Below, piece after piece: positions 28,967-47,195 of a stretch of DNA of 64,000 nucleotides. Below the pieces are notes generated by a model. The model was not told where the DNA came from and made no database searches. It saw nothing but the letters and a program-made list of their open reading frames with translations. Source of the DNA: Selenomonadaceae bacterium (GTDB lineage: Bacteria; Bacillota; Negativicutes; Selenomonadales; Selenomonadaceae); contig JAFUTY010000004.1 in assembly GCA_017484005.1 (NCBI GenBank), positions 1 to 64,000 of the forward strand, written 5' to 3'. The position numbers and the translations under genes are program-made. Position 1 is the stretch's first letter. Each line of letters opens with the position of its first letter.

Positions 28967-30578
28967 TCAATATTCAGAATCCCATTTTTTGAAGAGATCG
29001 AGAATTTGATTGATCATTTCATCGCTACGATTTGAAATTGCATTTGCATCCCAAGAATCAAGCGATCCAATTTTCTTCGTCATTGAAATAGAAGATGTTT
29101 GATACCATCCAGTTTTATCATTGAACGATTTGTTTTTCGCGCTGATATTCAAAGATTTTTCAAGCGGCGTGAGATTTCCAATCGCGTTGATAATTGCAGG
29201 ATCTTTTGGCGCGTAATTCTGTTGAAAATTCTGCGGCAGAATATGCTCAATCTCCCATGCCAATGGAAGTTTCGACGGCAAAATAGTTTTTTGATCCGGA
29301 TCGCTGTACGCAATGATTCGCAAAATCGTTCGAGTGATTAATCCATTTTGTCGAATCGCATTATCAACATCTTGATCGGTAAAATCATTCGCTGGAAAAT
29401 TTGGATGATCCGATTTTATCGATTGAATGTTGAGCTCGAGCACCGGAAATCGAATCGAAAGCGCAGTTCCAGTGACCGCATGGATTCGTGTGAGTGTCGC
29501 GATTAATTTATGCAGGAATTTCAAATATTTCGGCTCGAAATCGATTTCACCAGAATGCACGATGTAATAAACAATCGCTGCGGATCTCCAATGATCACTC
29601 GGCGAATTCCAGATGATATCGAGTGCCTGCTGAAGCTCCAAACACCAATTGCTCGAATTTGGATCTTTCATTTTTTGAATGATCTCAGAAATTTTTTCCA
29701 GATCACTCATCGTCACCGGATATCCAAGATAATTTTTGAGGAATTGTCGCATACTTCCGCGCAGATTTAATTTTCCACTCTTCGCCCGAGTGTATGAATG
29801 ATAATACGTGAAGAGCGTCATCATCGATTCGACATCTTCGATGATTCTGCCAGCGATTTATGAATTCTTTCCGAGTCGAATCGTCAAGTTTCGAATAGAT
29901 ATCTGCCTTGAAAATATCTGTATCGCTGAGCTGCAAACCGCGATCATTAATTCTTTCGAAAAGCTCGAGCGTCGATTGAAAATCATTTGCCTGAATTACT
30001 AAAATGTGTGTGGAATTCAAAAGATCGTTGACGAATTTCAAAAATGCATTTTGATTTTTCACGAATCCGCGCAATTGATTTTGGAATAATCGATAATTCG
30101 CAGAATAATTATCGTCACCATTTCCAGCTTTATTTGAGAGGATATCGATGAATTTTTGATTTGCCAAATCACTTGTCGCTTCAGACGAGATCCGAACTTT
30201 ATCCGGCGCAATGATATCTCCCATCAAATTCATTTCCCAAATTATTCCGCGAAGATTCATTTCTAACGGCGAATTTGACTGTAAATGTTCATGAATCGCG
30301 TGAAACAGTAAAAATAATGTCACGATTCGTTGTTGCCCACCGACAATCTCGCGTCTTTGATTTTGATTCGTGTAAAAAACGATCGAGCCGAGAAAATATG
30401 TATCGCTGGGATTCGAATTCGCGCTGAAATCCTTGAGATCTTCGAAGAGCTCCAATGCTTGATCTTTGCCCCAAGAATATGGGCGTTGATATTCCGGAAT
30501 CAGAAATGGTTTTTGAGTGGAATTGAAAAAATTGAAAATCGGCACATCTGCAACTGCTTTAATGCTTGGCAAATTCAA
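28967..30578 (-). pseudogene. GmrSD-like DUF262/DUF1524 protein, copy 1, frameshifted
   Basis: Two frames together give one DUF262-DUF1524 protein, the family of the type IV restriction enzyme GmrSD, which attacks modified phage DNA. The first frame (30578 to about 29850) has FLIPEYQRPYSWG and the NTP-site motif as GGQQR instead of the usual DGQQR, then FERINDRGLQLSDTDIFKA. After INRWQ the frame shifts. The second frame (to 28967) has DVESMMTLF and the DUF1524 nuclease motif IEHILPQ with its histidine. It starts 8 bases after the stop of copy 2, on a TTG with a weak site (AAGGGG). Probably inactive as a single protein. Confidence 0.8.
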
Positions 30579-30586
30579 TCAGCCCC

Positions 30587-32185
30587 TTAATATTCCGAAT
30601 CCCACTTATCCAATATCGCGAGAATTTGATCAACAATCTCCTCATTGCGACTTTGAATCTCGTCAAAACTCCACGAACTTTTTTCAATGAGATTTCTCGT
30701 GACAATTATACCAGATTTTTGATAGCAACTCTTTTTCTCTTCGAAAGATTTATTTTTTGTCTGTGCAAATTCTTTTTCGAGCGGTGTAAAATTCCCAATC
30801 GTTTCAACCAGATCTTTATCGTCGGGATTGTAAGAATTTTTTCTCGGCAGAATCAATTCTAATACACAATTCATAGGCAACAATTCATCCTGATTTGCAT
30901 ATACGAAGATGCTCATCCACATTTTTTGTATCGGTTTTGATTTCGATTGAATCGATTTTGAGATTTCCATTCGAGAAAAATTTTCCGTTGAAAAGCTCGG
31001 ATGAGTATAATGCATTGACTCAAAATTGATATCGATCATGAGTTTTCTGACTGTGGTAGCACTTTTAATCGAATAAGTTTTGGCGAAAGATGAAATCAAT
31101 TTATGAAGGAAACGAGTGAAATTCGATTCGAAATCTTCCTCGTCTTGAGGCGCGAGATAATAAACTGAAACTGCATAGTCCCACCATTCACTCGAAATTC
31201 TTCTGACAATATCGAGTGCCTTGCGAATCTCGATGTTTTGAGACCAAGATTCGCCATCGATCGTATTTTGAGTTTTAATCATGCGAATCAGTTTAAAAAT
31301 TTTTTCGAGATAATTCATCGACGTTGGATATTGAAGTGCATCGAAATTTCTATCGAGAAAATAATTTCGCACGCCATCATTATGAAATATCGCTTGTCGA
31401 TTATCTCTGGCGCGAGCAAAATACATGTAATGATTGAACAGCGTAATCATTGGCTCGTTGATGATATTCATTTTTCGTTCGAGAAGTTTCCAGCGTGCAA
31501 TAAATTCTCGACGCGATATTTCATCGAGTCTCGTATAAATTTTCGATTTGAAAATATCTGAATCGGTTAATTGTCTTCCGCGATCGTTGATTCGTTCAAA
31601 GAGGATAAGAGTCGAATTGAAATCGTCAGCTTTGATTGGTAAAATTGTCGTTAACTCAAGGAGTTTCTTTCGAAAAATCATAATATCGTCGAGATTCGAT
31701 AGCAGTTTTTGAAATTCGCGATAATTTCTTGAATAAAGCTCTGAGCCATCTGCTTTTCCTGTTGCGAGGATGTTGATGAAAGTCTGATTCGCTTCATCAC
31801 TTATCGCTTGCGACGAAATCAGAACTGAATCTGGAGAGATTACATCGCCAGTATTATCATCGAATTTCCAAATTAGTCTTTTCAAATCAGATTTCCAATT
31901 TGTATTTTTCAAAAGCTCATACATCGCTCGAATCAAAAGGAATAGCGAGATAATCCGTTGTTGCCCATCGACGATTTCGCGCTGATGAGTTGTATTTTCA
32001 AAATACATGATCGTTTCGAGAAAATATACCTCTCCCTCGAATTCATGAATATCGTTGAAGAGCGTCACGATTTCTTCAGTCTCCCATTCATATGGACGCT
32101 GATATTCCGGAATCAGAAAGGGTTTGTTGAGCTCACAAAAAAATTCACCAATGGTTTTGGGATCGGATGCGGCAATTCTCTTCAT
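30587..32185 (-). CDS. GmrSD-like DUF262/DUF1524 protein, copy 2
   Basis: A 532-residue intact reading frame, paralogue of copy 1. It has FLIPEYQRPYEWE, the canonical DGQQR at residues 73-77, FERINDRGRQLTDSDIFKS and a shared ending DKWDSEY. In the DUF1524 nuclease domain the motif reads LELILPRKNS where copy 1 has IEHILPQ: the catalytic-type histidine is replaced by leucine. NTP binding may persist while DNA cleavage is probably lost. ATG 32185 follows GAGGAG at 8 bases. Confidence 0.85.
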   Translation of the reverse strand: MKRIAASDPKTIGEFFCELNKPFLIPEYQRPYEWETEEIVTLFNDIHEFEGEVYFLETIMYFENTTHQREIVDGQQRIISLFLLIRAMYELLKNTNWKSDLKRLIWKFDDNTGDVISPDSVLISSQAISDEANQTFINILATGKADGSELYSRNYREFQKLLSNLDDIMIFRKKLLELTTILPIKADDFNSTLILFERINDRGRQLTDSDIFKSKIYTRLDEISRREFIARWKLLERKMNIINEPMITLFNHYMYFARARDNRQAIFHNDGVRNYFLDRNFDALQYPTSMNYLEKIFKLIRMIKTQNTIDGESWSQNIEIRKALDIVRRISSEWWDYAVSVYYLAPQDEEDFESNFTRFLHKLISSFAKTYSIKSATTVRKLMIDINFESMHYTHPSFSTENFSRMEISKSIQSKSKPIQKMWMSIFVYANQDELLPMNCVLELILPRKNSYNPDDKDLVETIGNFTPLEKEFAQTKNKSFEEKKSCYQKSGIIVTRNLIEKSSWSFDEIQSRNEEIVDQILAILDKWDSEY

Positions 32186-32278
32186 GTTTTTATCTCCTCG
32201 ATGTAAACTCAAAATTCAACATTACTATAGACGATCTAATTACACCGATCAAGACAAAATATTTTTCCGAATAAAAAA

Positions 32279-32316
32279 AGATCCACCGATCAATTTTCGA
32301 TCGATGGATCTTTTTT
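32279..32316 (-). terminator. terminator at the 3' end of the DUF927 gene
   Basis: A stem AGATCCACCGATC with GATCGATGGATCT and a 7-base loop, with an A-run to the left (a T-run on the minus strand). The DUF927 reading frame runs into the hairpin and stops inside it, which suggests that the gene's own 3' end was lost. Confidence 0.8.
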
Positions 32317-34748
32317 AGTTTCCAATAATGATCTCGTCTTTATGTGACATGTTTCGTTATCTGTGATGAAATTGCCGTCGTTTCCGGTGTTTCCAACAAC
32401 TCCATCGACGGATAGAAGAATGCAACGAGTTCGCAAGTCATGCGGATCATTTTCATTGAGCAATTCCTTTTCGCTAGTGATAGTAAGAGTTCCGCGATAT
32501 TTTTTGATAGGAACTTGAGATCCGTCGCGATTCTCTTTTCCGCGTGATTTCCCCGATTCGAAAGTTCGAATTAAGTTTTCAGCATATGCAGTTCGATCTT
32601 TTTCGGCGATGTGCTGCCATTCGTTGAAGTTAGTCGGGAGATCATTTCGATCAATGAATCTGTCAACGAGTGATTTCTTTGTTCCGTTGATTTCAATCAT
32701 GAACTCAGGATCTCCAAAGACGGAATTTGCACCAACCATTGCTGCCGTTTTTCCAGATTCAGATTCAGCGCAAATATAGAGAATAGGATTTCTAATTCCA
32801 AGTGGCTTAACGAGTGGTGCTAGAAATTGCATGTTGTACATCGCTCGAGCGTTTTGATATTTGCAAGCGCGTTTCATTAGCTCGATTTCAGATTCAATGT
32901 TACCTTTGCAATGAATATGTGGGACAACATCAGATTGAATAAGTTTGTACAATGCATTTCCAGCGTTGTCGAATTGGAATTCCGGATGAATGAATTCGAA
33001 GTTATCGCACCAACCTAATTTAGTGTATTGCGTAATTGTTTCGATATTATCTTCGTTAGTAGCTAGGAAAGCGATAATGAATTTATTTGCGAGTCGAATT
33101 TGAGACGCATCAACCAAAATTCCATAGTCGAGCAAAGCATTCGCCAGATCTGCAGTTTTGTTAATGATATGTGCGTCAATCAATCGATGAATCCATCGCC
33201 CATTCTTTCGAATAGCAAAATTGTAGTATGCAATGGATTCAGATCCCTCGTTTTGAACTAAGTTTTGAATGGCGAAAGGAGTCAACGAAACTGATTTAGA
33301 TGATTTTTCTGTCACGAGATCGATCCCGTTTTCATACATTTCGAATACATCAGGGATTGAAAGATATTTGATTTGATCTGGTGCGTCGGCAAATCTCTCC
33401 CCGATAGTTCCGCCCAAATCTTGACAGATAGCACGTCGCACGATCGGTGATTTGCGAATAGCATCGGGAGTCTTTTTTCCGAGACTCGCGACAACACATT
33501 CATGCTTTTCGCCACCGTTGCATGAAAGTCCCTTCGCAAGCAAATCTAAGCATTGGGCTGGCGGTAATTTTTTCAGCCCCTCCAGTTGCTTTTCTGTTTT
33601 TGAGATATCGAATTTATCTCCGCGCCAACGTTTGACGAGATCAAAAATAAATTGTTCAGATCCCTCGATTTTCAACAATGTTCGAAGAATCGGTACGACA
33701 ACTGAATATTCTTGCGTCTCGATATTTTCGACAACGTATCTAACTGCTGAGCAATGTTCGCAGATCATTTTTATCTGTTGATTTTCAGTATCGATTGAAA
33801 AAACAGCATTTGATGTGCTATACTTTCCCTCAAGGAACTTACGTTGAGACGTGGAAATCTCACGTGGATTCTTTGATTTTGGAATGAACACTTCGACTCT
33901 CTCTCGAAGTCGCAATTCGAACTCGTCTATCTCAAATGCTGTATTTGACGCTTCAATGCTGTATTTGACGCTTCGACCACTTTGCAGATTGGGGCGTCAT
34001 TTTTGTTTCCGGATTTCCAATTCCGAGTACCTGGCAATCTCAACATTCGCGATAGATCTGATGTTTTATCAATGAAATAACCTTGAGGATTAGATCTGAT
34101 GATTCCCTGCAGTGTCTCAAGAATTCCGTGGAATTGTTTGCAATCTTCATCAGATTCAATTTTAAATAATGAATTGAGAATCCAATAAGCATGGATTCCA
34201 TAGCCAGAATCTATAACTAGCGAAGGTTTCAAATCTTTGCCGAGTTGCGCTGTGATGATTTCACGCGCAATTTCAATTGTCGGTGCGAGTTTTTGATTTT
34301 GCCCATGAACTTCATTCGCAACATCAATATCACACCATAAACACGGAATTGCAACAATATCGGACGATTTAGCTCGCTCGTGAGTTCCGAGAGGATGATC
34401 GATTAAGCCCATGGAAAAAGAAACATTTTTGCTGTCAACATTGATTTGCTTGGCAATGCCCATCATTTTGTTGAGTTCTGAGATTTTGAAAGAATTTGTT
34501 CGTTTGTTGCGATTATCATTATCGCGACTCCAAATATAAGTATAGAGTTTGTCGCATAATTCATCCGGAACAAACTGATAAATTCGATTCAAGAATTCAA
34601 TTGGTGTTATACGTTGATATGATACGAGCGATTTGCATTCCATTGAATCGATCTGGGGTATTTCCGCTGATTTTGTGACATTCGACATTTCTTCAACTGA
34701 ATTTGGTTCACTTTGTATCAATTCGGTTTTGTCTGTTTCCATTTTCAT
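32290..34748 (-). pseudogene. mobile-element primase-DUF927 helicase gene split by a 20-bp duplication
   Basis: The upstream frame (34748-33927, 273 residues) is an archaeo-eukaryotic-type primase/PrimPol domain: the metal pair in LWCDIDV, then SGYGIHAYW and SRMLRLPGTRNWK. The downstream frame (33915-32290, about 541 residues) is a DUF927-type helicase-like domain with a P-loop-like ICAESESGKTAAM. They are out of frame by exactly the extra copy of a 20-bp direct repeat. With one copy removed, the join reads VEASNTAFEIDEFELRLR and gives one protein of about 812 residues. Such proteins replicate plasmids, phages or integrative elements. The C-terminus is also truncated at a terminator. Confidence 0.85.
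33935..33974. repeat. exact 20-bp tandem duplication inside the primase-DUF927 gene
   Basis: AATGCTGTATTTGACGCTTC occurs twice with no spacer (33935-33954 and 33955-33974). Twenty is not a multiple of three, so the duplication shifts the frame. Removing one copy joins the two neighbouring open frames. Confidence 0.95.
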
Positions 34749-35273: not shown

Positions 35274-35763
35274 ATGAAATTTCCTAAAATTAATTTGCAG
35301 GATGTTTCAGGTGTATTGAAACGTGAAAGCTCTGAAACTGAATCTGAACAAATTCCAGAGTCCCAAACTGACAACATGAGCAATATGGAAAAAGTTAAAT
35401 GCCATGCGATCATTCAACGTTGGATCTGGAGCTTCTGGCTCGATGAGCAACATTCCATTCGGCGTGGATCAATTCTCAATAACGAAAATTCAATCAATGA
35501 TTCTTCATCAGCTCGGTGATATTTTTGGAGTCGAATTCAAAGCAATTGCGGCTGAAGAAGCGATTGTCAAAATGAGTGTTGAATCGGTTTTAAAATCTGA
35601 TGAAGCGCGAAAACTGCCCATGGCGGGAAATATCGCTGGAACATCTGCGGCGATTGTATTTTCAGAAATGGTTTGCTGGCGATTGGCGAATCAATTTGCA
35701 GATCATCGAAATTGCGAAGTCGATATCAAGGGCAAAGAGTTGATTTTCACAAAGAAAAAATGA
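35274..35763 (+). pseudogene. frameshifted gene of unknown function
   Basis: The first frame starts at ATG 35274 (MKFPKINLQDVSGVLKR, then an acidic, glutamate-rich stretch) and runs to 35519. The second frame, open to 35763, carries the better-looking part (ITKIQSMILHQLGDIFGVEF and TSAAIVFSEMVCWRLANQ). No ribosome site precedes the second part, so a single gene shifted near 35395-35410 is likely. The N-terminus and the LGDIFGVEF motif echo the next decayed gene (LKVPKIKFP, LGKIFGIKF), so the two may be distant paralogues. Family not recognised. Confidence 0.55.
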
Positions 35764-35775
35764 GGAGAAATCGGC

Positions 35776-36507
35776 TTGAAAGTTCCAAAAATCAAATTTC
35801 CGAGCAAAGAACAATCGAAAGAAATTGCTGGAAAAGTTGCTAACGTCGCAAAAAATATTGCGGAGAAAGCTTACGAAAAAGTTCCAGCTCGAATTGAAAA
35901 TGTAACGTCGAATGTCAAAGAGACTGTATCAAATTAAACTCATAAAGTCGCTGATCAAACTAAGCAAGTTGCATCGAACGTCAAAGAAAAAGTTTCGGAT
36001 CAAGCAAAGAAACTCCTCGATAAAGCTGAATAAATTGCATGTGATGCAATAATTCAAGCAGCAAAATCAGCAGTTCAAAAAATCTCGATCGATAAACTCA
36101 AAAATTTATTGGTTACAACTCTCGGAAAAATCTTCGGCATTAAATTTACATCTGATTCAGTCAAAGAAAAATTTCTTGGCGAATACAAGGATACCGATGT
36201 TGAAAATTTTGTATGAAGTGTCGTGAAAAATTTCGCGGAACATCGATTCTCGGAAGTGGGATTAGTTTCTGGCGCGATCAATTCTGTCGAGTCGAAACTT
36301 CCGCATGAAAAAATCAACGTCGCAGAAATTGCAAAATCATTCGCGTCGTAACTCAAAGATCTCGCACAAGAAAAAATCGAGAATCAAACTGAAAAGATAA
36401 ATGCAAAGATCGAGCAGAAAAAACGGTCGATCATGATGAAAATTCTGATTTTAGTCATTGGATTGATCGTCATCGCTGGAGTCATTGCGTTTTTTATTTT
36501 GAAGTGA
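35776..36507 (+). pseudogene. helical tail-anchored protein gene with four in-frame stop codons
   Basis: A 244-codon frame starts at TTG 35776 behind a GAGGAG site. It reads as a lysine-rich amphipathic helical protein (KEIAGKVANVAKNIAEKAYE, VASNVKEKVSDQAKKLLDKA) with one C-terminal membrane helix (ILILVIGLIVIAGVIAFFIL). Four stops interrupt it at 35935 (TAA), 36031 (TAA), 36214 (TGA) and 36349 (TAA), with no frameshift anywhere. All four could come from CAA or CGA by a single C-to-T change. The gene begins 13 bases after the preceding decayed gene and ends 22 bases before the radical SAM gene. Confidence 0.7.
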
Positions 36508-36528
36508 ATTTGAGGAAATTTAGGATAC

Positions 36529-37707
36529 ATGCAAATCATTTTAAAACTCACGACAGATTGTAATCTTGCCTGCTCATATTGTAGCGAAGGCAATCAAAAA
36601 TTTAAAAGACTTTCGCCGGAATTTTTCAACAAACTTGTGAAAGATCTCCCAGATTTACTTACATACATTGGAGATAATAGTGCTGATTTTCTATTCCATG
36701 GCGGAGAACCAATGTTATATGGAATGGAAAATCTTCGATCGCTGATGAATTTTGCGCGTGAAAATCTGTCCAATTTAAACTTGAATTTTCTAATGCAGAC
36801 AAATGGAACTTTGATTGATGACGAGTGGATCAAATTTTTTGATACAGAGCAAATTGGAGTTGGAATTTCACTTGACGGCTATCCAGAGATACATAATTCA
36901 AATCGTTGCGATAAGAATGGAAATCCAACTGCACAAAAAATTCTCAACAACATCAGAAAAATGCGTGAATCGAATTTGAATGTTGGAATTTTGATGGTTG
37001 TTACGAAGGATCTCGACGCAGAACGATTGTTTAAATTTATTCAAGACAATGATCTTAACCCGAAAATTCATCCAGTAGTTCCATGTGGTAGGGCAGCAAA
37101 TCGTACCGATTCAATCGAAGTTTATGAATCATACGTTGAAATCATGAAAAAACTCCTCAAATTATCTTTACTAGAGGAGAATGCCAAGATTATTGATCCG
37201 CTCGATGAAATTCTAAACGCAATTCTGGGAATTTCACCAATGCATGAATGTGCATTCGGTGGAACGTGTGGGAAAAATTTCATCTGTCTATATCCTGATG
37301 GTGAAGTTGGATTTTGTGGTCGAGATAATCTTGCGAGATTCTTGACTTATGGAAACATTCAAGATTCAACATTACTTGAACTGTATGAGTCTGACAACGC
37401 CATAAAGATTCGCGATCGTCAAAAAATTTTGCGCGATGGAATCTGTCAGAAATGTTCAGATTGGAATCTCTGTCACGGAGGTTGTGCATTTGAGGCTGTC
37501 AATTCTAACGGAAATCTGAATTCAAAATATCCATTATGTGAATATCGCCGAAAATTTCTCGCATGGCTTAAAGTCGATGGTTTGAAATTATTAAAATCTG
37601 CACTTGTCAAAGCAAAAAAACGAAAGCGTGAATCGATCAAAATGAAGAGACATGCTGTCAATGAGATTGAATCGATGTCATTGGATGAGGTTTTGAATCG
37701 TGCTTGA
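36529..37707 (+). CDS. radical SAM/SPASM-domain protein (peptide- or protein-modifying type)
   Basis: A 392-residue radical SAM enzyme. The cluster-binding CNLACSYC (Cys 11, 15, 18) is at the very start, and FHGGEP and QTNGTLID are family motifs. The C-terminal SPASM region has auxiliary-cluster cysteines (CAFGGTCGKNFIC, FCGR, CQKCSDWNLCHGGC, and a last Cys in YPLCEYR). A basic, alpha-helical tail of about 45 residues (KAKKRKRESIKMKRHAVNE) follows. SPASM enzymes usually modify ribosomal peptides or activate sulfatases; no sulfatase is nearby. It overlaps the next gene by 8 bases. The substrate is unknown. Confidence 0.88.
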   Translation: MQIILKLTTDCNLACSYCSEGNQKFKRLSPEFFNKLVKDLPDLLTYIGDNSADFLFHGGEPMLYGMENLRSLMNFARENLSNLNLNFLMQTNGTLIDDEWIKFFDTEQIGVGISLDGYPEIHNSNRCDKNGNPTAQKILNNIRKMRESNLNVGILMVVTKDLDAERLFKFIQDNDLNPKIHPVVPCGRAANRTDSIEVYESYVEIMKKLLKLSLLEENAKIIDPLDEILNAILGISPMHECAFGGTCGKNFICLYPDGEVGFCGRDNLARFLTYGNIQDSTLLELYESDNAIKIRDRQKILRDGICQKCSDWNLCHGGCAFEAVNSNGNLNSKYPLCEYRRKFLAWLKVDGLKLLKSALVKAKKRKRESIKMKRHAVNEIESMSLDEVLNRA

Positions 37708-39418
37708 TATTCTGTTTTTGAATTTGCATCGGCGATATTTGAACATTGAACCGACTCACGGTGGATTTTTAGGAATATATCTACTCGCGGCATTTACTCG
37801 GTCGGAAGGATTTGAATCGAAAAGCTTTGCTGGATCTCTCGAACGTGGCAAAAGATACCTCGACGAGCTTTGTAATGCTGAAGCTGTTTCAATGATTGGA
37901 CTTTATTGCGACTATGAAAATGTCACCGAGAATATTTTTTTGAGTCGCTACATAAAAGATCAGTTCAAAATTCCAGTGATTGTTGGAGGTCCTCAAGCAA
38001 CTGCGCTCGATGAGGAGTTTTTTCGCAAATCAAAATGTGATGCTGTCGTGAGATTTGAAGGGGAATTGACTGTTCTCGAATTGATGAATTTTTTTCTCGA
38101 AGATGTCGGCAAGCTCGAAAAGATTCATGGAATTTCATATTTGACGTCTGAAGGAATTCAAACAAATCCAGATCGCAAATCGATTCGAAATCTTGATGTA
38201 CTGCCATTCATCAATGAAGATTGTTATCTTGAACCAAAACAATTTTATCGTGGATTGAGTTTAATGACTGGGCGAGGATGTCCATTTCATTGCGCATTTT
38301 GTCACGAAGGATCTCATACTCGAGCGGTTCGTTTCCGTTCAGTCGAAAATATTTTGGCGGAGATCGATGCGTATCTTGAAAAATGGAATGGCGATGATTT
38401 AACAATCTTGTTTACTGACGATACATTTACACTTGATTTAACACGTGTCAAAGAAATTTGCGTGGGATTAGCTGAGCGTCGAAAGTCATATCGATTCAAA
38501 TGGTTTTGCGAGGGACATGTTCATACGTTGTTTCGAAATCCAGAAATGATTAGAGATCTCGCGATGGGCGGCTGTTATCGAATTCAGCTTGGAATTGAAG
38601 CAGGAACATCAAAAGTCTTGCAGTCATATGGAAAACATTCGACTCCGGAAGAGATTTTTGAAGTTGTGAAAATGTGTCGCGATGCATGTATTGAGCAAAT
38701 TTTTGGCAACATAATTCTTGGCGGCGCACATTTTTCTCGAGAGATTTTCGAGGAAGATAAAAAATTTGCGCATGATTTAATTGTTGAAAGTCGCGGGACG
38801 GTTGAAATTGGAACAGTAACATTTTGGCCACTCGCTGAAACTCGAATGACAAGATCGCCGGAAGATTTTGGAATCAAAATTATCGATCCAGAATTTGTGA
38901 CATCAGCGGGAGATTTTCCACAGATCGAGACAACGGAAATCGATCGATTCGAAATCAATGAAATGGAGCGCGAGTTGCGTGAATTCATTGAAAAACAAAT
39001 GCTCGATATGATTGCAACTTGGCAGATTCCAACGTCGCGAATTTTGAGTTGGTTCAAAAATGCACATCGATATCGTGGAATGTGGTTTGCCACTTTGAGA
39101 CGTGACGAGATTCTCTTTTCATATTATGAAATGTTGTCAATCGGCGAAGGATTTCATTCGAGTCAAATCGAGGATTTATCGAGTGCGCATCCAATGAGAG
39201 TTATAGCGTTGAATCTAAATTTATACCGCGAATCGAAATCGAGTATAAAAATTCATGGCGAAAGTTTTGTTGGAATCGAAATCGAGATCATTCTTCTAAC
39301 GACTGGAAAATTGAGCGTCAAAGAAATTGCAGAGCATCTCGACTTGACCATTGATCAAGTGATCGAGTTTTTGAATCAACTTGAAGACATGCATTTGATC
39401 GTTTATTCAAAATATTAG
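37700..39418 (+). CDS. B12-binding-type radical SAM protein with C-terminal winged-helix-like domain
   Basis: A 572-residue protein starting at GTG 37700. Residues about 1-150 look like a cobalamin-binding domain (GGFLGIYLLAAF, VIVGGPQATALDEEFF), though the classic DxHxxG is not evident. Residues about 180-420 are radical SAM with CPFHCAFC (Cys 194, 198, 201) and FTDDTFTLD. The last 60 or so residues (TGKLSVKEIAEHLDLTIDQV) resemble a winged helix or PqqD-like unit. Members often methylate or rearrange unactivated carbons. The order SPASM enzyme, B12 enzyme, then GTPases with minimal gaps suggests one operon. Confidence 0.85.
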   Translation: MLDILFLNLHRRYLNIEPTHGGFLGIYLLAAFTRSEGFESKSFAGSLERGKRYLDELCNAEAVSMIGLYCDYENVTENIFLSRYIKDQFKIPVIVGGPQATALDEEFFRKSKCDAVVRFEGELTVLELMNFFLEDVGKLEKIHGISYLTSEGIQTNPDRKSIRNLDVLPFINEDCYLEPKQFYRGLSLMTGRGCPFHCAFCHEGSHTRAVRFRSVENILAEIDAYLEKWNGDDLTILFTDDTFTLDLTRVKEICVGLAERRKSYRFKWFCEGHVHTLFRNPEMIRDLAMGGCYRIQLGIEAGTSKVLQSYGKHSTPEEIFEVVKMCRDACIEQIFGNIILGGAHFSREIFEEDKKFAHDLIVESRGTVEIGTVTFWPLAETRMTRSPEDFGIKIIDPEFVTSAGDFPQIETTEIDRFEINEMERELREFIEKQMLDMIATWQIPTSRILSWFKNAHRYRGMWFATLRRDEILFSYYEMLSIGEGFHSSQIEDLSSAHPMRVIALNLNLYRESKSSIKIHGESFVGIEIEIILLTTGKLSVKEIAEHLDLTIDQVIEFLNQLEDMHLIVYSKY

Positions 39419-39430
39419 GAGGTGTTTCGG

Positions 39431-40330
39431 TTGAGGGATTACATTCAAGATTTTGTACAGATGCGCGATCAAATCAACGAAGATTCAACGAGCATTCGAA
39501 TAGTCAACGCAGGAATCATGAATTCCGGCAAGAGTTCTCTGTTCAATTCACTTCTCGATCGCTATGAATTTACAGTTCGCGATGCTAGAGAAACGGTTGC
39601 AATTAAACCGATTGAATGGCAACCAGGAGTTTTTTTGATCGATACTCCAGGACTCGAAGCGAATAAAGGCGATGATGCGGAAGCAAATCGAGCATATCAG
39701 CGTGCAAACATGATTGTCTTTGTTCATAAATTGGAAGCGGGCGAATTGCACCAATCAGAAATCAATGCAATTAATCGGCTCAAAAGTTTGTTCGATGATC
39801 CAAAATTTTTCTGGAGACATTTCTGCATGGTTTTTACAGCTCGAGAAAGTCGTAGTGGATTCGAGCAAATTGTTCAAAAATCGTTGTCAGATGTTCAAAA
39901 AGAATGTGGATATTCCGATTTCAAGGTTTTCATTGTTTCAAATACAGATTATGCAGAAGGCACAGATCCAGATGATCCAATTCCAGAACTCGTTGAAGAG
40001 AGTGAAATTCCGGCGTTCAGAAAATTTCTCCAAGACAATTTTGAAATTTGGCGTAAAGAATCAATCATCATCAAGAAAATCAAGATCAATCAAGCAAGAG
40101 AGTCAATTCTGTCTCAATTGAGAATTGAGCGTGATCAGATTTATCGAAATATAGAACGCAAAAAAGAGCAAATTCAAGATCAACAAAGTTATTTTTTGGG
40201 ACGTCTTCGCGATGTTTTCGAATCAACTGACGAGGCTTGGAGAGAATATGATCGAGAAGATGATGAATTGATTGAAATTGGTAACGAACTCGAGGAATTG
40301 AAAGATAAACATAGTCGGGAGGTATTTTGA
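39431..40330 (+). CDS. dynamin-like GTPase A
   Basis: A 299-residue P-loop GTPase. The G1 loop GIMNSGKSS is at residues 28-36, the G3 motif DTPG near residue 72, and SNTD may act as G4. The N-terminal GTPase region is followed by a coiled coil (ERDQIYRNIERKKEQIQDQQ). TTG 39431, 8 bases after AGGAGG, is preferred over GTG 39422, which is too close to that site. It is shorter than GTPases B and C. Its stop overlaps the next start (TGATG). Confidence 0.85.
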   Translation: MRDYIQDFVQMRDQINEDSTSIRIVNAGIMNSGKSSLFNSLLDRYEFTVRDARETVAIKPIEWQPGVFLIDTPGLEANKGDDAEANRAYQRANMIVFVHKLEAGELHQSEINAINRLKSLFDDPKFFWRHFCMVFTARESRSGFEQIVQKSLSDVQKECGYSDFKVFIVSNTDYAEGTDPDDPIPELVEESEIPAFRKFLQDNFEIWRKESIIIKKIKINQARESILSQLRIERDQIYRNIERKKEQIQDQQSYFLGRLRDVFESTDEAWREYDREDDELIEIGNELEELKDKHSREVF

Positions 40331-40728
40331 TGTTTATTGCGGGCGCAGTGGTAATCGGTGGCGCAGCATTAGCTCACGATAATCACTCAAATTATCACGA
40401 TTGGTCGGAGTACAATGAATATCAAGATGCAAAACTGAGAGCTCAGATCGCATCGAAGCAAGATCAATACGATTCTCAATCAAACTACGTAAGTTATTTG
40501 AGAGAACAGATGATCGACAATTTCAACGATGGCATACGCGAATTGAGAAATGAACAATATTACATTGCACTGGATGGAATCAAATGGAGTGACAATTTCA
40601 GTGAAAAATGGGACGAAATCAAGGCAGAAATGAGAGATGATTTGAATCGCGAAATTCAAGCGGAACAATCGGAGCTTGAACAAATCGATCGAATGATTGA
40701 AAAAATCAATGAGCTTGCGATGCAATGA
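40330..40728 (+). CDS. small protein with N-terminal hydrophobic segment and coiled coil
   Basis: A 132-residue protein not recognised as a family member. It starts with a short hydrophobic glycine- and alanine-rich stretch (MFIAGAVVIGGAALAH), then a tyrosine- and asparagine-rich part, and ends in a long acidic coiled coil (REIQAEQSELEQIDRMIEKI). It lies between two dynamin-like GTPases with overlapping ends, so it may be a membrane partner or adaptor for them. This is inference from position only. Confidence 0.7.
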   Translation: MFIAGAVVIGGAALAHDNHSNYHDWSEYNEYQDAKLRAQIASKQDQYDSQSNYVSYLREQMIDNFNDGIRELRNEQYYIALDGIKWSDNFSEKWDEIKAEMRDDLNREIQAEQSELEQIDRMIEKINELAMQ

Positions 40729-40739
40729 AAGGAGATCCC

Positions 40740-42500
40740 ATGAGTTATATCAATGATTGTGCGGATGAATTTATTGGAAAGATGCAAAAACTCCAAACTG
40801 ATCTGGCAAATTTTTCCCGCGATCTAAACAATCGAAGCGATTCAATTCCTCAACTGATCGATGAATTTGAAAATAGAGTGTTTGCATCGCAAGGAGAAAA
40901 TTTTGGGAGCAATGAAGTTGAGAAATTGGTGCAACAATCGCTCGAAAGTTTTCGGCAAACGATTCAAGATTGGCGCAAAAAGGTTGAACAAGATCGCAAG
41001 GGACAGGAATTTTATAAGAAGCATGAAAAATGTCTCGTTGTGATGGTTTTTGGGGCGGTGAAAGCTGGAAAATCTTCGCTCGGAAATTTCATCGCTGGAA
41101 AATCATTATTAAGCGCGAGTTTTGACAATGATTATAAAAAAATCCCGCGTGCCCAATTCGAATCGGAAGAAGAGGGACGTGAGACTGGTGGAATTACTGA
41201 GGATGGATGGTTTCAGCAAGGAGTTACAGATACAACCGGCTCGATTCAATTTTTTACATTGAGCGGATTGAGATGGTTCGATTCGCCAGGAACTGGAGCG
41301 GTGGGAAAATCTGGCGACAAAATCAATATGGATGATCTAGTCAATGAGTATCTTCAATACACAGATCTAGGCGTTTTTCTGATGAATAGTGCGAATCCTG
41401 GACTTCAAGAGGATATGAAATACATGATTCAACTCGATAAGGAAGGGCGCGAATCATTAATCATTATCACGCAATCAGACAAGATGGGAATTAAGCGCGA
41501 TTCGAATGGAAAAGTTGTCAGAGATGCGAATGGAAAAGTTGTTCGTGAGTTGATAGCTAAAGATTCACGCGAAATACAAGAAGAGGATGTCAAAAAGCGA
41601 GCTCGAGAAGGCGATGAGAATATGCCTCCGATCAATGCAAAATTTGGCGTTTTGAGTGTGTCAACTCTATTAGCGGAACAGGCTGTTGCCGAACAAGACG
41701 ATGATAAATTTCGTGCGAGCAATTTGGACAAATTCATGAAACAACTGGGAGACAAAGTGAATTCTCAAGCACTTGAATTGAAACGTAAAAGTCCAGAAAC
41801 TCGACTTAATGCATTCGTTGACACAATCACAGACAATCTGAAAAATTTCAACGTTATGCTCGATGCAATTGAGGAGTCGATTAATGATTACAAATCAAAA
41901 ATCGAGACTCGTGCGCGATCGATCACTTCAAGCGTCATGCGGAAAACTCGAGCAGATGTTCAGTCTCTCGTTAGAAATTGGGATCGACAAGTTAGAGCCG
42001 GTGGCTCATTTGATCGCGATTCAGTGAATTCCGAAGTTTCAAGAATCATGCAACAACACTTGAATTCGGAGATCGATAAGCAATTGCGAACGATTATTTC
42101 TGATTATCAAAGCAGAGAAATACAAGTTGCTCAAGCAAGATTCAATGTAGGTGATTTGTCAAAACAAACTAAACAAGTTGCGCAGGAATATACTGAATTT
42201 GTCAAGGAAAAACGTATAGCTCGAGGCTTTTTTGAAAGTGTTAGAGAAATATTTGGTGCAAAGTTCTATGATACTAAAGCAGTTACGAAAACTAAAATGA
42301 TAACTGTAGAGGCTGGAACAAATCTTCAATTTTTCTTGGATCAACTGATGCCTCAAGTTGAATCTCATGCAAGCGAGCAAGCTGAATCTGCATTGAAGCA
42401 TCTCGAATCCACATATTTCGCTGGACGTGAGAGATTTGTAATTAACACACGTCGCGAGATTGCAACTCTTGATCAAAAATTCCAGAAATTGAAATTTTGA
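40740..42500 (+). CDS. dynamin-like GTPase B
   Basis: A 586-residue large GTPase. A helical N-terminal region (about 1-95) is followed by the G1 loop GAVKAGKSS at 105-113, a switch I threonine region (GVTDTTGS), G3 DSPG and G4 TQSDK. A long helical stalk follows (about 340-586), with coiled-coil segments. No hydrophobic paddle is obvious. ATG 40740 follows AAAGGAGAT, so the longer frame from 40725 is rejected. Length and layout fit bacterial dynamin-like proteins, which act on membranes by assembly and GTP hydrolysis. Confidence 0.87.
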   Translation: MSYINDCADEFIGKMQKLQTDLANFSRDLNNRSDSIPQLIDEFENRVFASQGENFGSNEVEKLVQQSLESFRQTIQDWRKKVEQDRKGQEFYKKHEKCLVVMVFGAVKAGKSSLGNFIAGKSLLSASFDNDYKKIPRAQFESEEEGRETGGITEDGWFQQGVTDTTGSIQFFTLSGLRWFDSPGTGAVGKSGDKINMDDLVNEYLQYTDLGVFLMNSANPGLQEDMKYMIQLDKEGRESLIIITQSDKMGIKRDSNGKVVRDANGKVVRELIAKDSREIQEEDVKKRAREGDENMPPINAKFGVLSVSTLLAEQAVAEQDDDKFRASNLDKFMKQLGDKVNSQALELKRKSPETRLNAFVDTITDNLKNFNVMLDAIEESINDYKSKIETRARSITSSVMRKTRADVQSLVRNWDRQVRAGGSFDRDSVNSEVSRIMQQHLNSEIDKQLRTIISDYQSREIQVAQARFNVGDLSKQTKQVAQEYTEFVKEKRIARGFFESVREIFGAKFYDTKAVTKTKMITVEAGTNLQFFLDQLMPQVESHASEQAESALKHLESTYFAGRERFVINTRREIATLDQKFQKLKF

Positions 42501-42513
42501 GGAGGATGAATTC

Positions 42514-44154
42514 GTGGACGAAGTAAAAGATTATCGTGAACTTCTTCATCGGAAATCGGACGAAGTCGAATCGATCGCACAGCGTTATCCGTTAATGAAA
42601 AAGGCTCTCGAGACATTCCTCGAAATCAATCGAGAGAAAGTTGATGCAACTTCGCCTGAGATCATGTTTTATGGAATTTACAATGCTGGAAAAAGTAGCA
42701 TTCTCAACGAAATTGTCGGTGAGGATATTGCTCCAGTGGGAGATATTCCAACGACGAAAGACATCAGACGTTATCAATGGCGCGGTTATAACATCACAGA
42801 TACTCCAGGAATCGATGCGCCAGTTGCCGATGAAGAAGTTACTCAAAGTCATCTCAAAAAAGCTGATGTCGTGTTATTTGTTATGGGAACTAAGGGGAGT
42901 TATGAAAATCTAACGAATTATCGGCGAATGAAAGAAATTGCAGATGATGGCAAAAAGATCATAATCGTGTTGAATGACATGAATGCATATCTTTCTGAAA
43001 ATCCTGATATGATCGATCAAATCAAGGGAAAAGTCGCGGAGAATATGAGACAGGTCAAGATTCGCGATGTCGATACAAAATTTGAGATCATTGCAGTTAA
43101 TGCTCAAGATGCGAAAGATGGTCGCGAGTGCGATGAGCCGGAATTGATCGCGCAAAGCAGAATCGAATATCTTCGTGGAGCGATATTGCATCAGTTACAA
43201 AGTTCAAATTCATTTCAAATTCTTCGAAATGCAGTTCAAGAAATGGAAAAAATTCTCGATTCAATGATTGAACAGACTGGTGAGAGTTCATCTGGAGAAA
43301 TCAGAAATAGTAGCGAAATTCTCGAGAGATTTGAGGAGCAAAAGAGAATCGCGCGAAAAGTAATCAATGAATTTATTGAAAGTCAGACTGCGAATTTTGG
43401 TAGTGTGATGCCGGCAATTATTTGGGAAGATCGAAGCAATGCAAATCAAATTCTCGAGCGAGAGATCGATAAGCTTAACGACAGAGTGTTGGTCGAATTG
43501 AATCAACAACTTGAGGATATGTATGCAACTCTTCAAGCCGAGTTCAAAGCGATTGACAAATTGCAAGTCACGAATGATATCAATTTCAACGAGATGGCAA
43601 ATCAAACTCAAGCACTCGTTGCAAACACATCGAGTAGTTTCGATTTGAAGGATGCAGTTGATCAGACAAAACAAACGATAGATCTGATCGAACAAGGTAG
43701 CAGTTTGTTGAAAGGCGTAGGTATTGGAACGTTAGTTTCTCAAGTTGCCAAGAAAGTTGGAATTGCGAATCTGATTCCTGGCGGTGGACAGGTTATCACG
43801 GGAATTTTAACTATCGGGACTCTTCTATCAAGTCTCAGCAAGGGAAATCAAGATGCAGTTGAAAAACAGATTGCACAAGCTCAGGCGGCTGAGGAGCGTC
43901 GTCAACGCGAGGAAGAGCGCAAACGTCAAGATCTCGAACAGAAAATGAGATATGTTGCAAATGATATTTCATCGCAACTTAGAAAATCGACAAGTGAGAT
44001 CTTGAATTCGGCGACTGAAGAGATTTTGAAACCATTCAAAGCAAAAATCGAATCCATGAAATCTGAAGGAAAACAAGTTATAGCGGATATTGATAAATTG
44101 CGTGAGATTCGAAACGAATATGATCTAATTAAGATCGATCTCGGTGCGAAATGA
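42514..44154 (+). CDS. dynamin-like GTPase C with a hydrophobic membrane segment
   Basis: A 546-residue GTPase starting at GTG 42514 behind GAGGAGGA. The G1 loop GIYNAGKSS is at 54-62, the switch I threonine in DIPTTKD, G3 DTPG near residue 92, and G4 reads VLND (variant). Residues about 390-450 are hydrophobic and glycine-rich (LLKGVGIGTLVSQVAKKVGI and GGGQVITGILTIGTLLSSL), like a membrane-inserting paddle. Coiled coil follows (EERRQREEERKRQDLEQKMR). B and C could form a heteromeric pair, as in other tandem bacterial dynamins. It ends the operon, before a terminator. Confidence 0.87.
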   Translation: MDEVKDYRELLHRKSDEVESIAQRYPLMKKALETFLEINREKVDATSPEIMFYGIYNAGKSSILNEIVGEDIAPVGDIPTTKDIRRYQWRGYNITDTPGIDAPVADEEVTQSHLKKADVVLFVMGTKGSYENLTNYRRMKEIADDGKKIIIVLNDMNAYLSENPDMIDQIKGKVAENMRQVKIRDVDTKFEIIAVNAQDAKDGRECDEPELIAQSRIEYLRGAILHQLQSSNSFQILRNAVQEMEKILDSMIEQTGESSSGEIRNSSEILERFEEQKRIARKVINEFIESQTANFGSVMPAIIWEDRSNANQILEREIDKLNDRVLVELNQQLEDMYATLQAEFKAIDKLQVTNDINFNEMANQTQALVANTSSSFDLKDAVDQTKQTIDLIEQGSSLLKGVGIGTLVSQVAKKVGIANLIPGGGQVITGILTIGTLLSSLSKGNQDAVEKQIAQAQAAEERRQREEERKRQDLEQKMRYVANDISSQLRKSTSEILNSATEEILKPFKAKIESMKSEGKQVIADIDKLREIRNEYDLIKIDLGAK

Positions 44155-44271: not shown

Positions 44272-44559
44272 GTGAATTTTTATTCTATTCGCGATTTGCG
44301 TAGCGAGACGAAAAATATTTGCGAAAAAGTTCGTCAAAATGGAGAAGTTGTCATAACCAATAATGGTAAGCCCTCTGTACTCATGCTTGATATTTCTGAA
44401 GATAATTTTGAAGAGATTATTCGATCAATAAGACAAGCAAAGGCTATGATTGCTTTTAACAGCATGAAAGCTATCGCCGCTACCAATGGTTATATGACCG
44501 ATTCAGAAATTGAAGAAGAGATCAAAGCAGCTCGCTCTGAAAGGCGGGAGCAATATTGA
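44272..44559 (+). CDS. Phd/YefM-family antitoxin
   Basis: A 95-residue protein with the Phd/YefM pattern: IRDLRSETKNICEKVRQNGE, then VVITNNGKPSVLMLDI, and a C-terminal acidic tail that would wrap the toxin. It would bind its own promoter and neutralise the PIN toxin whose start overlaps its end. GTG 44272 follows AAAGGAGG. Confidence 0.88.
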   Translation: MNFYSIRDLRSETKNICEKVRQNGEVVITNNGKPSVLMLDISEDNFEEIIRSIRQAKAMIAFNSMKAIAATNGYMTDSEIEEEIKAARSERREQY

Positions 44560-44951
44560 TTGCTGTTTTGGATACGAATGTCCTTGTATCGGCATTGTGG
44601 ACACCAAATGGTAAAGCGGCTCACATCGTCAATCAGGCTATCTCTGGAAGGCTGAAACTTTGTCACGACTATCGAATATTGGCTGAATATAGGGAAGTAT
44701 TGTCACGCCCAAAGTTCAAATTTTATGATTGGCAAGTAAATTTTCTACTAGAAAGATTGGAAAAAGATGGTATTTCAGTAATTCCCATCGCACTGCCCCA
44801 AGTACCCTTTACCGATGAATCTGATCGCGTATTTTACGAGGTAGCGAAATTTTGTGATGCGCCACTTGTTACCGGCAATCTGAAACATTATCCGCAGGAT
44901 AATTGCGTAGTGACCGTGTCAGATTTTTATGACAAAATTTTAATATCATGA
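44556..44951 (+). CDS. PIN-domain toxin (COG1569-type) of a toxin-antitoxin pair
   Basis: A 131-residue PIN-fold ribonuclease-like protein. The metal-binding acidic residues are in AVLDTNVLVSALW (Asp 5), the glutamate of LAEYREVLSRPKF, and TDESDRVFYEVAK, followed by LVTGNLKHYP. It resembles the COG1569 group of putative toxins. The start is TTG 44556, overlapping the antitoxin stop, with a GGCGGGAG site. A terminator follows. Confidence 0.87.
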   Translation: MIAVLDTNVLVSALWTPNGKAAHIVNQAISGRLKLCHDYRILAEYREVLSRPKFKFYDWQVNFLLERLEKDGISVIPIALPQVPFTDESDRVFYEVAKFCDAPLVTGNLKHYPQDNCVVTVSDFYDKILIS

Positions 44952-45654: not shown

Positions 45655-47195
45655 TTATTCCTCCCTCAAAAAATTTTCAATTACTTTTTCCATGTGTTCT
45701 CTTGACAAAATAAGCATTTCGACAAGATGTCCCTGAAGTTTCACACGTTTAAAATAACGTTTACGTGTGCCGCCATTACCATCTTTGTTTTCATAACCTT
45801 TTGAAATGCCTTTCATAAAGAGATCGCGAAAAATGCTTGTCGCATCAGAAACCAACTCACGACCAGAGTTTGTTAATTGTTGACGGACAATTGAGATGAC
45901 TTTATCCGGCACAAGAACATACTTCTCACCATCGCTATCAGATTTGCAAAATCCAATATATTTGCCCCCATGTCTTTCGAATTCATCTTTACTAGTCGCA
46001 ACAATTGCCGTTCCTGTTGCTATAACTTGTTGCAATGCTAGTAAAAATTGTTGCCAAGGTTCAGTAGCAATTGATTCCGATTGATTTCTTAGCATCAGAT
46101 CAGCGATAACTTTGAACCAACATGCCATTTTTTCTTGAGCCTGCTGAGGAGTAATAATGCCAATTTGATGTCCCCAATCAAGTATCAACACAGCTGTGGC
46201 GCAAAAATCGCGGTAGATTTGCTGATGCCTTTTGAATTTCAGTTGCAATGGTGGAGGCTGAAAATTTATTAAAAGATTGGTACATCTTTCATAATTGTCT
46301 TCGAGATAAGAAATCCATGCAGCAAAAATTTCTTGAACAATGGTCGATCTGCCAGCTAATTTTGCATGAATCTTATCCTGTTGAAAGATATTCAACTCCG
46401 CTGTATCAATAGAATCATTTTCAAGAGGGATCGACACATAACGCAGTGCACTGGATTGTTGTGACTCCAAATCATGCTCAGCGGTAACAATGCAACCACC
46501 TTGAACTTTGGTACGGATGATCTCATTGAAATCTTTGCCAGCTGATTTTGCCCTGCCAATTCCTTCACCGAATGCTCTCAGAATATCTTCAAATTTTGTC
46601 ATGTTGGTCGCATTCTTCTTGAAAATATCGTCAACAATCATCGTCATATCGATGCATTCTTCACGATAAATCTCCAAAGCACGACTCGTTGATTCAAAAC
46701 GCAACATTCCACCTTCGTTAAAAGGTTCGGCAAAAGTTTCGCAGATAGTCGTTTTCAAACTTCCAGTTTTGCCAACGAGTAGCAAAAGAAATTGTACCTT
46801 CAAGCCAGTATCGTTGAATAACTTGCAAGCAAAACTGAGATGCAAATATAACCAGAATGGAAGACTTACCTTTAGGCTCTCAGCCTCGTTAAACACACCA
46901 TCATCATTGAAAATGCTTTTTCCAATCTTCAAGATTCTTAGATCGTTTTGCCAAGCGATTCCCATGCGTTCTGAAGGAATTTTAGGAATTGTGACATTGC
47001 ATTAACAATCACTGCGACTATCAGAAAGATAGACCATCTTGCCATTCACTGATTCCCAACCGTGATATGTGAAAATTTCTTCGACTCCATGATTTTGAAG
47101 GAAATAGCGGTAGATAATCGCGCCATATTCCTGTAAGGTACTCTTTGCGATGTTTTTACTCTCGGGACAGATATACGTTTCCTTGAATCTCTGAT
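45655..47195 (-). pseudogene. DUF927-type mobile-element helicase, truncated and with an internal stop
   Basis: The open part (46965-45655, 436 residues) has a P-loop LLVGKTGSLKTT, a Walker B-like MTMIVDDIF and the region GCIVTAEHDLE, typical of the ATPase half of DUF927-type proteins. The same frame continues upstream beyond a TAA at 47004-47002 with EEIFTYHGWESVNGKMVYLS, which matches the part before the P-loop (a GW motif). So a nonsense codon has cut the gene, and its 5' end beyond about 47195 is missing. It is a second element of the same broad type as the primase-DUF927 gene at 32-35 kb, but not a close copy. Confidence 0.7.

Follow-up and report, generated by a model that had tools for sequence, protein, structure and literature searches.

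Two radical SAM enzymes, three dynamin-like GTPases, and a small protein designated SM are encoded by six adjacent genes in an uncultured Selenomonadaceae-type bacterium (genome size 2.44 Mb), and these genes constitute one inherited system. The same six genes are present in about 17 genomes, belonging to the Selenomonadaceae (including Anaerovibrio lipolyticus), Megasphaera, and Veillonella caviae. We consider it probable that the SPASM-type radical SAM enzyme of this system staples SM, that the B12-binding radical SAM enzyme modifies it further, and that the mature SM serves a set of Leo-type dynamins.

Organization of the cassette

The six co-directional genes are tightly packed at positions 36529–44154 of the window, that is, the whole stretch of 64,000 nucleotides that was analysed. 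In the order of the window, the features are as follows:

36529–37707 (+), radical SAM/SPASM enzyme, 392 aa, predicted cyclophane-forming maturase of SM
37700–39418 (+), B12-binding radical SAM enzyme, 572 aa, with a C-terminal winged-helix domain at residues ~497–572
39422–40330 (+), GTPase A, 302 aa, short dynamin-like GTPase with a helical C-terminus
40327–40728 (+), SM, 133 aa, predicted radical SAM substrate; homologues suggest the ATG at 40330 as the start
40375–40428 (+), array of six triplets inside SM (codons CAC GAT AAT ... TAT CAA GAT)
40725–42500 (+), GTPase B, 591 aa, dynamin/mitofusin-like, with a helical trunk and a beta-hairpin tip
42514–44154 (+), GTPase C, 546 aa, LeoA-like dynamin with one hydrophobic segment
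44167–44191 (+), intrinsic terminator-like hairpin at the operon end (consensus scan: 10-pair stem, then T tract; consensus match only)

The first-pass annotation had listed six adjacent co-directional genes, and all of them are found where it placed them, with the domain content that it described: in Pfam, the three GTPases match MMR_HSR1/Dynamin_N, and the B12 enzyme, for which a winged-helix-like tail had been proposed, has the B12-binding and Radical_SAM domains and a weak winged-helix match at its tail. The single terminator said to close the run is likewise recovered, again as a consensus match only. As to the junctions, which had been described as overlaps or spacings of 11–13 bases, the overlaps are there (8, 4, and 4 bases), and the spacings are near but inexact, the two gaps being 3 and 13 bases.

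Two decayed ORFs had also been recognized ahead of the operon, and their decay is evident: the ORF at 35274–35763 is frameshifted, and the second frame (35776–36507) has four in-frame stops (TAA, TAA, TGA, TAA) and no frameshift. Both ORFs (35274–36507) are helical, and stops also occur in some of the weak relatives of the first ORF within the genus. The proposal that they are former substrates or partners is abandoned here, because no relative of either was found at any cassette locus examined, and the weak, scattered relatives within the genus lie on contigs other than that of the cassette. They are bystanders outside the conserved unit.

Conservation and co-occurrence of the six genes

When the B12 enzyme was used to search for relatives, close homologues (57–67% identity, one of them broken) were found in 11 other genomes of the same genus, the remaining matches being distant radical SAM proteins only. 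In nine of these 11 regions the same protein set adjoins the B12 gene, as far as the contigs reach. A wider scan of 84,980 species genomes with the B12-enzyme alignment as query added Selenomonas ruminantium RUG14411, Anaerovibrio lipolyticus An883, Megasphaera sp. UBA1696, and Veillonella caviae DSM 20738, together with a short contig binned as Lachnospiraceae, the assignment of which is uncertain. The usual gene order elsewhere is A-SM-B-SPASM-B12-C, and the window differs in having the SPASM-B12 pair in front. The flanks of the cassette also differ from genome to genome; judging from the sequences, we take them to be tgt and a ygfA-like gene, hypE and clpB, comEC or lepA with hemW, or uroporphyrinogen genes.

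Among 380 genomes of the class, GTPase B is present in 18 and the SPASM enzyme (counted at E at most 1e-60) in 15, all of which are included in the 18. The two genes share one contig in 14 of the 15 genomes, and in the 15th (G025) they are split at contig ends. Three genomes have GTPase B and are outside the SPASM set. In G007 the contig stops inside the SPASM gene, in G034 the SPASM and B12 genes are broken, and in G224 GTPases A, B, and C are kept and the genes for SM and both radical SAM enzymes are all missing. A profile search that recovered SM in five genomes used as positive controls found no SM in G224 or G034; the result in G034 is weak because its contig ends just upstream of GTPase B, which leaves G224 as the single clean case in which SM and the two radical SAM genes are absent together. 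In 12 complete cassettes (incomplete loci were left out), the pairwise distances of all six proteins correlate with one another (r 0.80–0.95), which is the pattern expected of a unit inherited together and which the shared ancestry of the hosts (vertical inheritance) could also give by itself. In the same set, mean identity is highest in the radical SAM enzymes (0.52 and 0.56) and lowest in SM (0.34).

These observations show that the radical SAM genes and the GTPases belong to one conserved system, spread over several genera between unrelated flanks. An accidental grouping is rejected, all 15 SPASM-containing genomes of the 380 also carrying GTPase B. Outside this class, GTPase B was not found at E 1e-15 in 397 further Bacillota genomes. 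Carriage by phages or plasmids finds no support: neither the B12 enzyme nor GTPase C has a relative in scans of IMG/VR, and searches of plasmids and phages gave, among the matches listed, distant generic dynamins or radical SAM proteins only (<30% identity).

The small protein SM and its triplet array

An alignment of eight homologues reveals the plan of SM: a hydrophobic, Gly-rich N-terminus of 14–18 residues, an array of aromatic triplets, and a coiled-coil tail with a conserved IDxMIxxIN motif. The array reads HDN-HSN-YHD-WSE-YNE-YQD in the window, HGN HSD YSC HSR HSN YRE YGD at locus L034, and HSD HSD YSD followed by YYSDY in Veillonella; triplets such as YSD, HSN, HSR, and YGD are seen in other SMs. 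Position 1 is filled by Y, H, or W, and at position 3 the residues D, R, N, and E predominate. The middle position is most commonly Ser and varies to G, D, N, R, H, and Q, and only two triplets of the window array have Ser there. In 15 of 17 SM homologues, an aromatic run at a spacing of three is rare in shuffled sequences (P 2e-4 to 5e-3), the exceptions being L047 and a second SM copy in L035. Across the loci examined, runs of four triplets occur in 11 of 2393 ORFs, and nine of these 11 are SM. Because the codons of the array are mixed, the repeat is kept at the protein level and is not a DNA repeat. Two homologues, in L047 and L114, have two triplets only, and the second copy in L035 has none.

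Two unusual forms of SM should be mentioned. At L114 (1728–2180 of the reverse-complemented locus), a Pro-Lys-Glu-rich stretch replaces most of the array. At L038 (6362–6907), the C-terminus of SM runs into a second copy of GTPase B's tip segment, a partial duplication that contains in-frame stops.

SM thus supplies the adjacent gene with aromatic-X-X motifs that is seen in three-residue cyclophane systems, and it is the likely substrate, judging from its sequence; the first-pass annotation had called it simply a small hydrophobic/coiled-coil protein. No leader peptide, protease, or exporter is conserved in the cassette loci, and the cassette is therefore not a normal RiPP cluster. The earlier suggestion that the radical SAM enzymes modify a protein serving the GTPases fits the array of SM and the joint absence in G224; the part of it that named the front ORFs as substrates does not stand.

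The two radical SAM enzymes

The SPASM enzyme matches Radical_SAM (3e-15) and SPASM (2e-6) in Pfam. The CxxxCxxC motif and the SPASM cysteines C-x2-C-x5-C-x3-C are conserved across its relatives. Its ranking among the NCBIfam models is headed by DynA (193 bits), the anaerobic sulfatase maturase (164), YhhB (148), and DarE (141), with GrrM/OscB and AmcB also among the closest; all the scores are below cut-off, so that no cyclophane model reaches its own threshold and the sulfatase maturase comes second. The same models match all 15 SPASM relatives. By profile, the closest solved structure is an anaerobic sulfatase maturase (4k37, 2e-43). PADLOC matches to Viperin do not identify this enzyme, because they cover the radical SAM core and the SPASM maturase models score far higher. 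Two of the known cyclophane enzymes are instructive: YxdB joins Tyr to Asp, and YhhB joins Tyr or His to Arg, in each case within three residues (PMC11002830). The pattern of these bonds is that of the SM triplets, which supports cross-linking of SM by the SPASM enzyme.

The B12 enzyme matches Radical_SAM (6e-19) and B12-binding (3e-8) in Pfam, and CxxxCxxC is invariant in 17 of its relatives. The nearest solved folds to its AlphaFold model (pLDDT 88) are TsrM, MgmA, OxsB, and CysS, which are mostly methyltransferases; OxsB illustrates that radical reactions other than methylation are possible in this group. In the model, the tail forms a winged helix behind a three-stranded sheet (strands at 508–524, then three helices). 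An HMM-HMM comparison matched the tail to PqqD (86% locally and 58% globally, with no other winged helix as a control), and Pfam assigns generic winged helices instead of PqqD, so that a relationship to the PqqD-type recognition domains (RRE) is suggestive only.

The B12 enzyme is also found in other settings. At three loci (L043, L044, and L049) it occurs without SPASM or dynamin genes and also without SM or an array. A glycine-rich hydrophobic protein is encoded ahead of it at these loci, with a CxxCxxCC protein between the two in two cases, and at L043 (the same locus as L030) a P-loop NTPase resembling a GTPase lies upstream. The N-termini of the glycine-rich proteins, MAIPFLAVIVGG and MAVPFILGGAAA, recall the SM N-terminus MPFVAIIGGAVVVGG in L111. 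These resemblances are a hint, and no more, that the hydrophobic N-terminus may be the target of the B12 enzyme and the array that of the SPASM enzyme. B12 radical SAM genes of the same family also form tandem arrays of five to seven, arranged as two opposed runs, at L050, L051, L052, and L053 (Wallbacteria, Acidobacteria, and other MAGs). At L054–L071 (Acetobacterium, Sporomusa, Synergistaceae, and others), B12 radical SAM genes recur in a constant combination, one of them coding for a double-length protein of ~1,200 aa.

The dynamin-like GTPases

The description of A, B, and C as three dynamin-like GTPases is borne out by PADLOC and Pfam matches and by the fold predicted for GTPase B. GTPase A matches MMR_HSR1 (6e-11, Pfam) and LeoA (1.7e-16, PADLOC) and conserves the P-loop and DTPG; GTPase B matches LeoBC (1.5e-13, PADLOC); and GTPase C matches LeoA (1.2e-37) and LeoBC (4e-36) in PADLOC and Dynamin_N (3e-16) in Pfam. 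The Veillonella GTPases likewise match LeoA/LeoBC in PADLOC, and GxxxxGKS and DxPG are invariant in the alignments of all three proteins. The AlphaFold model of GTPase B, with a pLDDT of only 75, has a G domain, a long helical trunk, and a beta-hairpin tip; its best Foldseek matches are BDLP, IniA, mitofusins, the Campylobacter DLP pair, and LeoA, and against mitofusin-1 it gives a VIA Z of 16.9 over 313 residues (rmsd 6.1). The three GTPases are nearest to the LeoA/LeoBC (Eleos) defence dynamins. From the PADLOC matches and the fold of GTPase B, we therefore read A, B, and C as a heteromeric dynamin set, the predicted output of which is membrane remodelling.

A proposed mechanism and its alternatives

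We infer the following reaction, substrates, role of SM, and output. Most likely, the SPASM enzyme would cross-link a triplet by a bond between the ring of its first residue (Tyr, His, or Trp) and the beta-carbon of its third (Asp, Asn, Arg, or Glu), and successive cross-linked triplets would convert the flexible stretch behind the hydrophobic N-terminus of SM into a rigid polycyclophane. The B12 enzyme, whose C-terminal winged-helix domain could bind the substrate, would then modify SM a second time, by methylation or by some other radical reaction; the site may be the hydrophobic N-terminal segment. The mature, membrane-anchored SM, held by its coiled coil, may anchor, gate, or trigger GTPases A, B, and C at the membrane, resulting in membrane remodelling, plausibly for envelope protection or phage defence.

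One alternative concerns the chemistry. The SPASM enzyme might act on SM or a GTPase by oxidizing Ser/Cys to formylglycine, by forming thioethers, or by making a dynobactin-like His-Tyr link between neighbouring triplets. The second-best NCBIfam model and the closest solved structure are sulfatase maturases, the middle position of the triplets is most often Ser, and the best model, DynA, is that of dynobactin, a product with both a C-C and a C-N cross-link (PMC11002830). The conserved residues, however, are the aromatic one and the acidic, amide, or basic third one, and the middle Ser varies, down to two in the window array; we regard such chemistry as unlikely. A still less probable reading makes the array a metal-binding or pH-sensing His/Tyr/Asp linker and gives the radical SAM enzymes another target, for instance a lipid or a component of a phage. 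Metals are commonly bound by His, Asp, and Tyr, and the B12 enzyme also occurs without SM, beside the glycine-rich hydrophobic proteins, but a strict period of three residues, with Tyr or Trp often replacing His, ill suits a metal site, and SM and both radical SAM genes are jointly missing in G224, which keeps the GTPases.

One might also argue that the radical SAM pair and the GTPases are independent modules and chance neighbours, given that the pair stands in front in the window and between B and C elsewhere, and that single parts occur alone (L043, L044, L049, and L106). An interdigitated order kept in several genera, overlapping reading frames, and a patchy joint distribution make this very improbable. 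The stapling of SM for the use of the dynamins is the reading that we prefer.

Possible function and genomic neighbourhood

The surroundings of the cassette in the window bear on its role:

29703–32212 (-), two tandem GmrSD/DUF262-type genes, ~4 kb upstream of the cassette and on the opposite strand; the gene at 30587–32212 (-) is complete (GmrSD_N and GmrSD_C)
32290–33915 (-), DUF927 protein flanking the cassette
44272–44951 (+), Phd/YefM antitoxin gene and an overlapping 131-aa ORF, directly after the terminator
45655–46965 (-), flanking protein with a weak DUF927/VapE-like match only

The 131-aa ORF is presumably PIN-like, and together with the Phd/YefM gene it is likely to be a toxin-antitoxin pair. 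The DUF927-type flanks suggest plasmid- or satellite-type neighbours. Several observations speak for a role in phage defence: the GTPases are related to Eleos, the cassette is patchily distributed, the GmrSD genes and the Phd pair lie beside it in the window, and a NERD-helicase follows it in Veillonella. This view is weakened by the housekeeping genes around most other copies and by the few PADLOC matches in 76 flanking proteins (read without a matched control set). Phage defence, and envelope or vesicle remodelling without defence, appear to us equally plausible, each at somewhat below an even chance.

If the proposed mechanism is true, radical SAM cross-linking would no longer be confined to secreted peptides but would also act on a protein that stays in the cell as a partner of dynamins, and it would provide a new way to equip a membrane-remodelling, perhaps anti-phage, machine. 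SM is a concrete, testable candidate substrate, and because the cassette is present in the isolates Veillonella caviae DSM 20738 and Anaerovibrio lipolyticus An883, the chemistry and a possible phage phenotype can be tested directly.

Comparison with known systems

Each ingredient has precedents by itself: paired dynamins, maturases that form cyclophanes, and conflict systems that include radical SAM enzymes. No published account of the union of dynamins, SM, and radical SAM enzymes was found in the open literature, in agreement with the earlier remark that no described system was known to join dynamins and radical SAM enzymes.

The cassette shares with LeoABC/Eleos the tandem dynamin-like GTPases in one operon, which match the LeoA and LeoBC models, and its short GTPase partner recalls the split LeoC/LeoB. 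It differs in having three GTPases plus SM and two radical SAM enzymes. Eleos is defined as a two-component system without further conserved genes, whereas six genes are conserved here. LeoABC is the known precedent for a heteromeric dynamin set, and, as far as the accessible part of its description goes, neither an SM-like gene nor radical SAM enzymes are reported in the conserved leo neighbourhood (Michie 2014, PMC4159319).

As in the triceptide clusters (YxdB, YhhB, HaaB, XncB, and OscB), a SPASM enzyme adjoins a gene with repeated aromatic-X-X motifs, the third residue being D, N, or R. The putative substrate in the cassette, however, is not a leader-core precursor but a coiled-coil protein of 133 aa whose N-terminus is hydrophobic, and its partners are dynamins in place of an exporter or protease. 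The maturases of dynobactin and darobactin, DynA and DarE, are among the closest models, but the SPASM enzyme scores far under their cut-offs of 450 and 650 bits, and the cassette has neither an antibiotic precursor nor a transporter. In the FtsH ternary conflict systems, which are NTPase-driven, a radical SAM enzyme likewise accompanies a standalone peptide effector, its proposed target (Kaur 2020, PMC7159879), but their core is vWA-MoxR/FtsH and not dynamins, and a SPASM/B12 pair is not named there.

We place the cassette with the Leo-type dynamin systems as a variant; the chance that it is a new kind is nonetheless real. What would be new, and what we put forward tentatively as a possibility that falls short of an even chance, is a set of dynamins with a resident, genetically encoded membrane partner, a radical-SAM-stapled polycyclophane protein that acts as a structural or trigger element and bears a second, B12-dependent modification, used for anti-phage or envelope defence.
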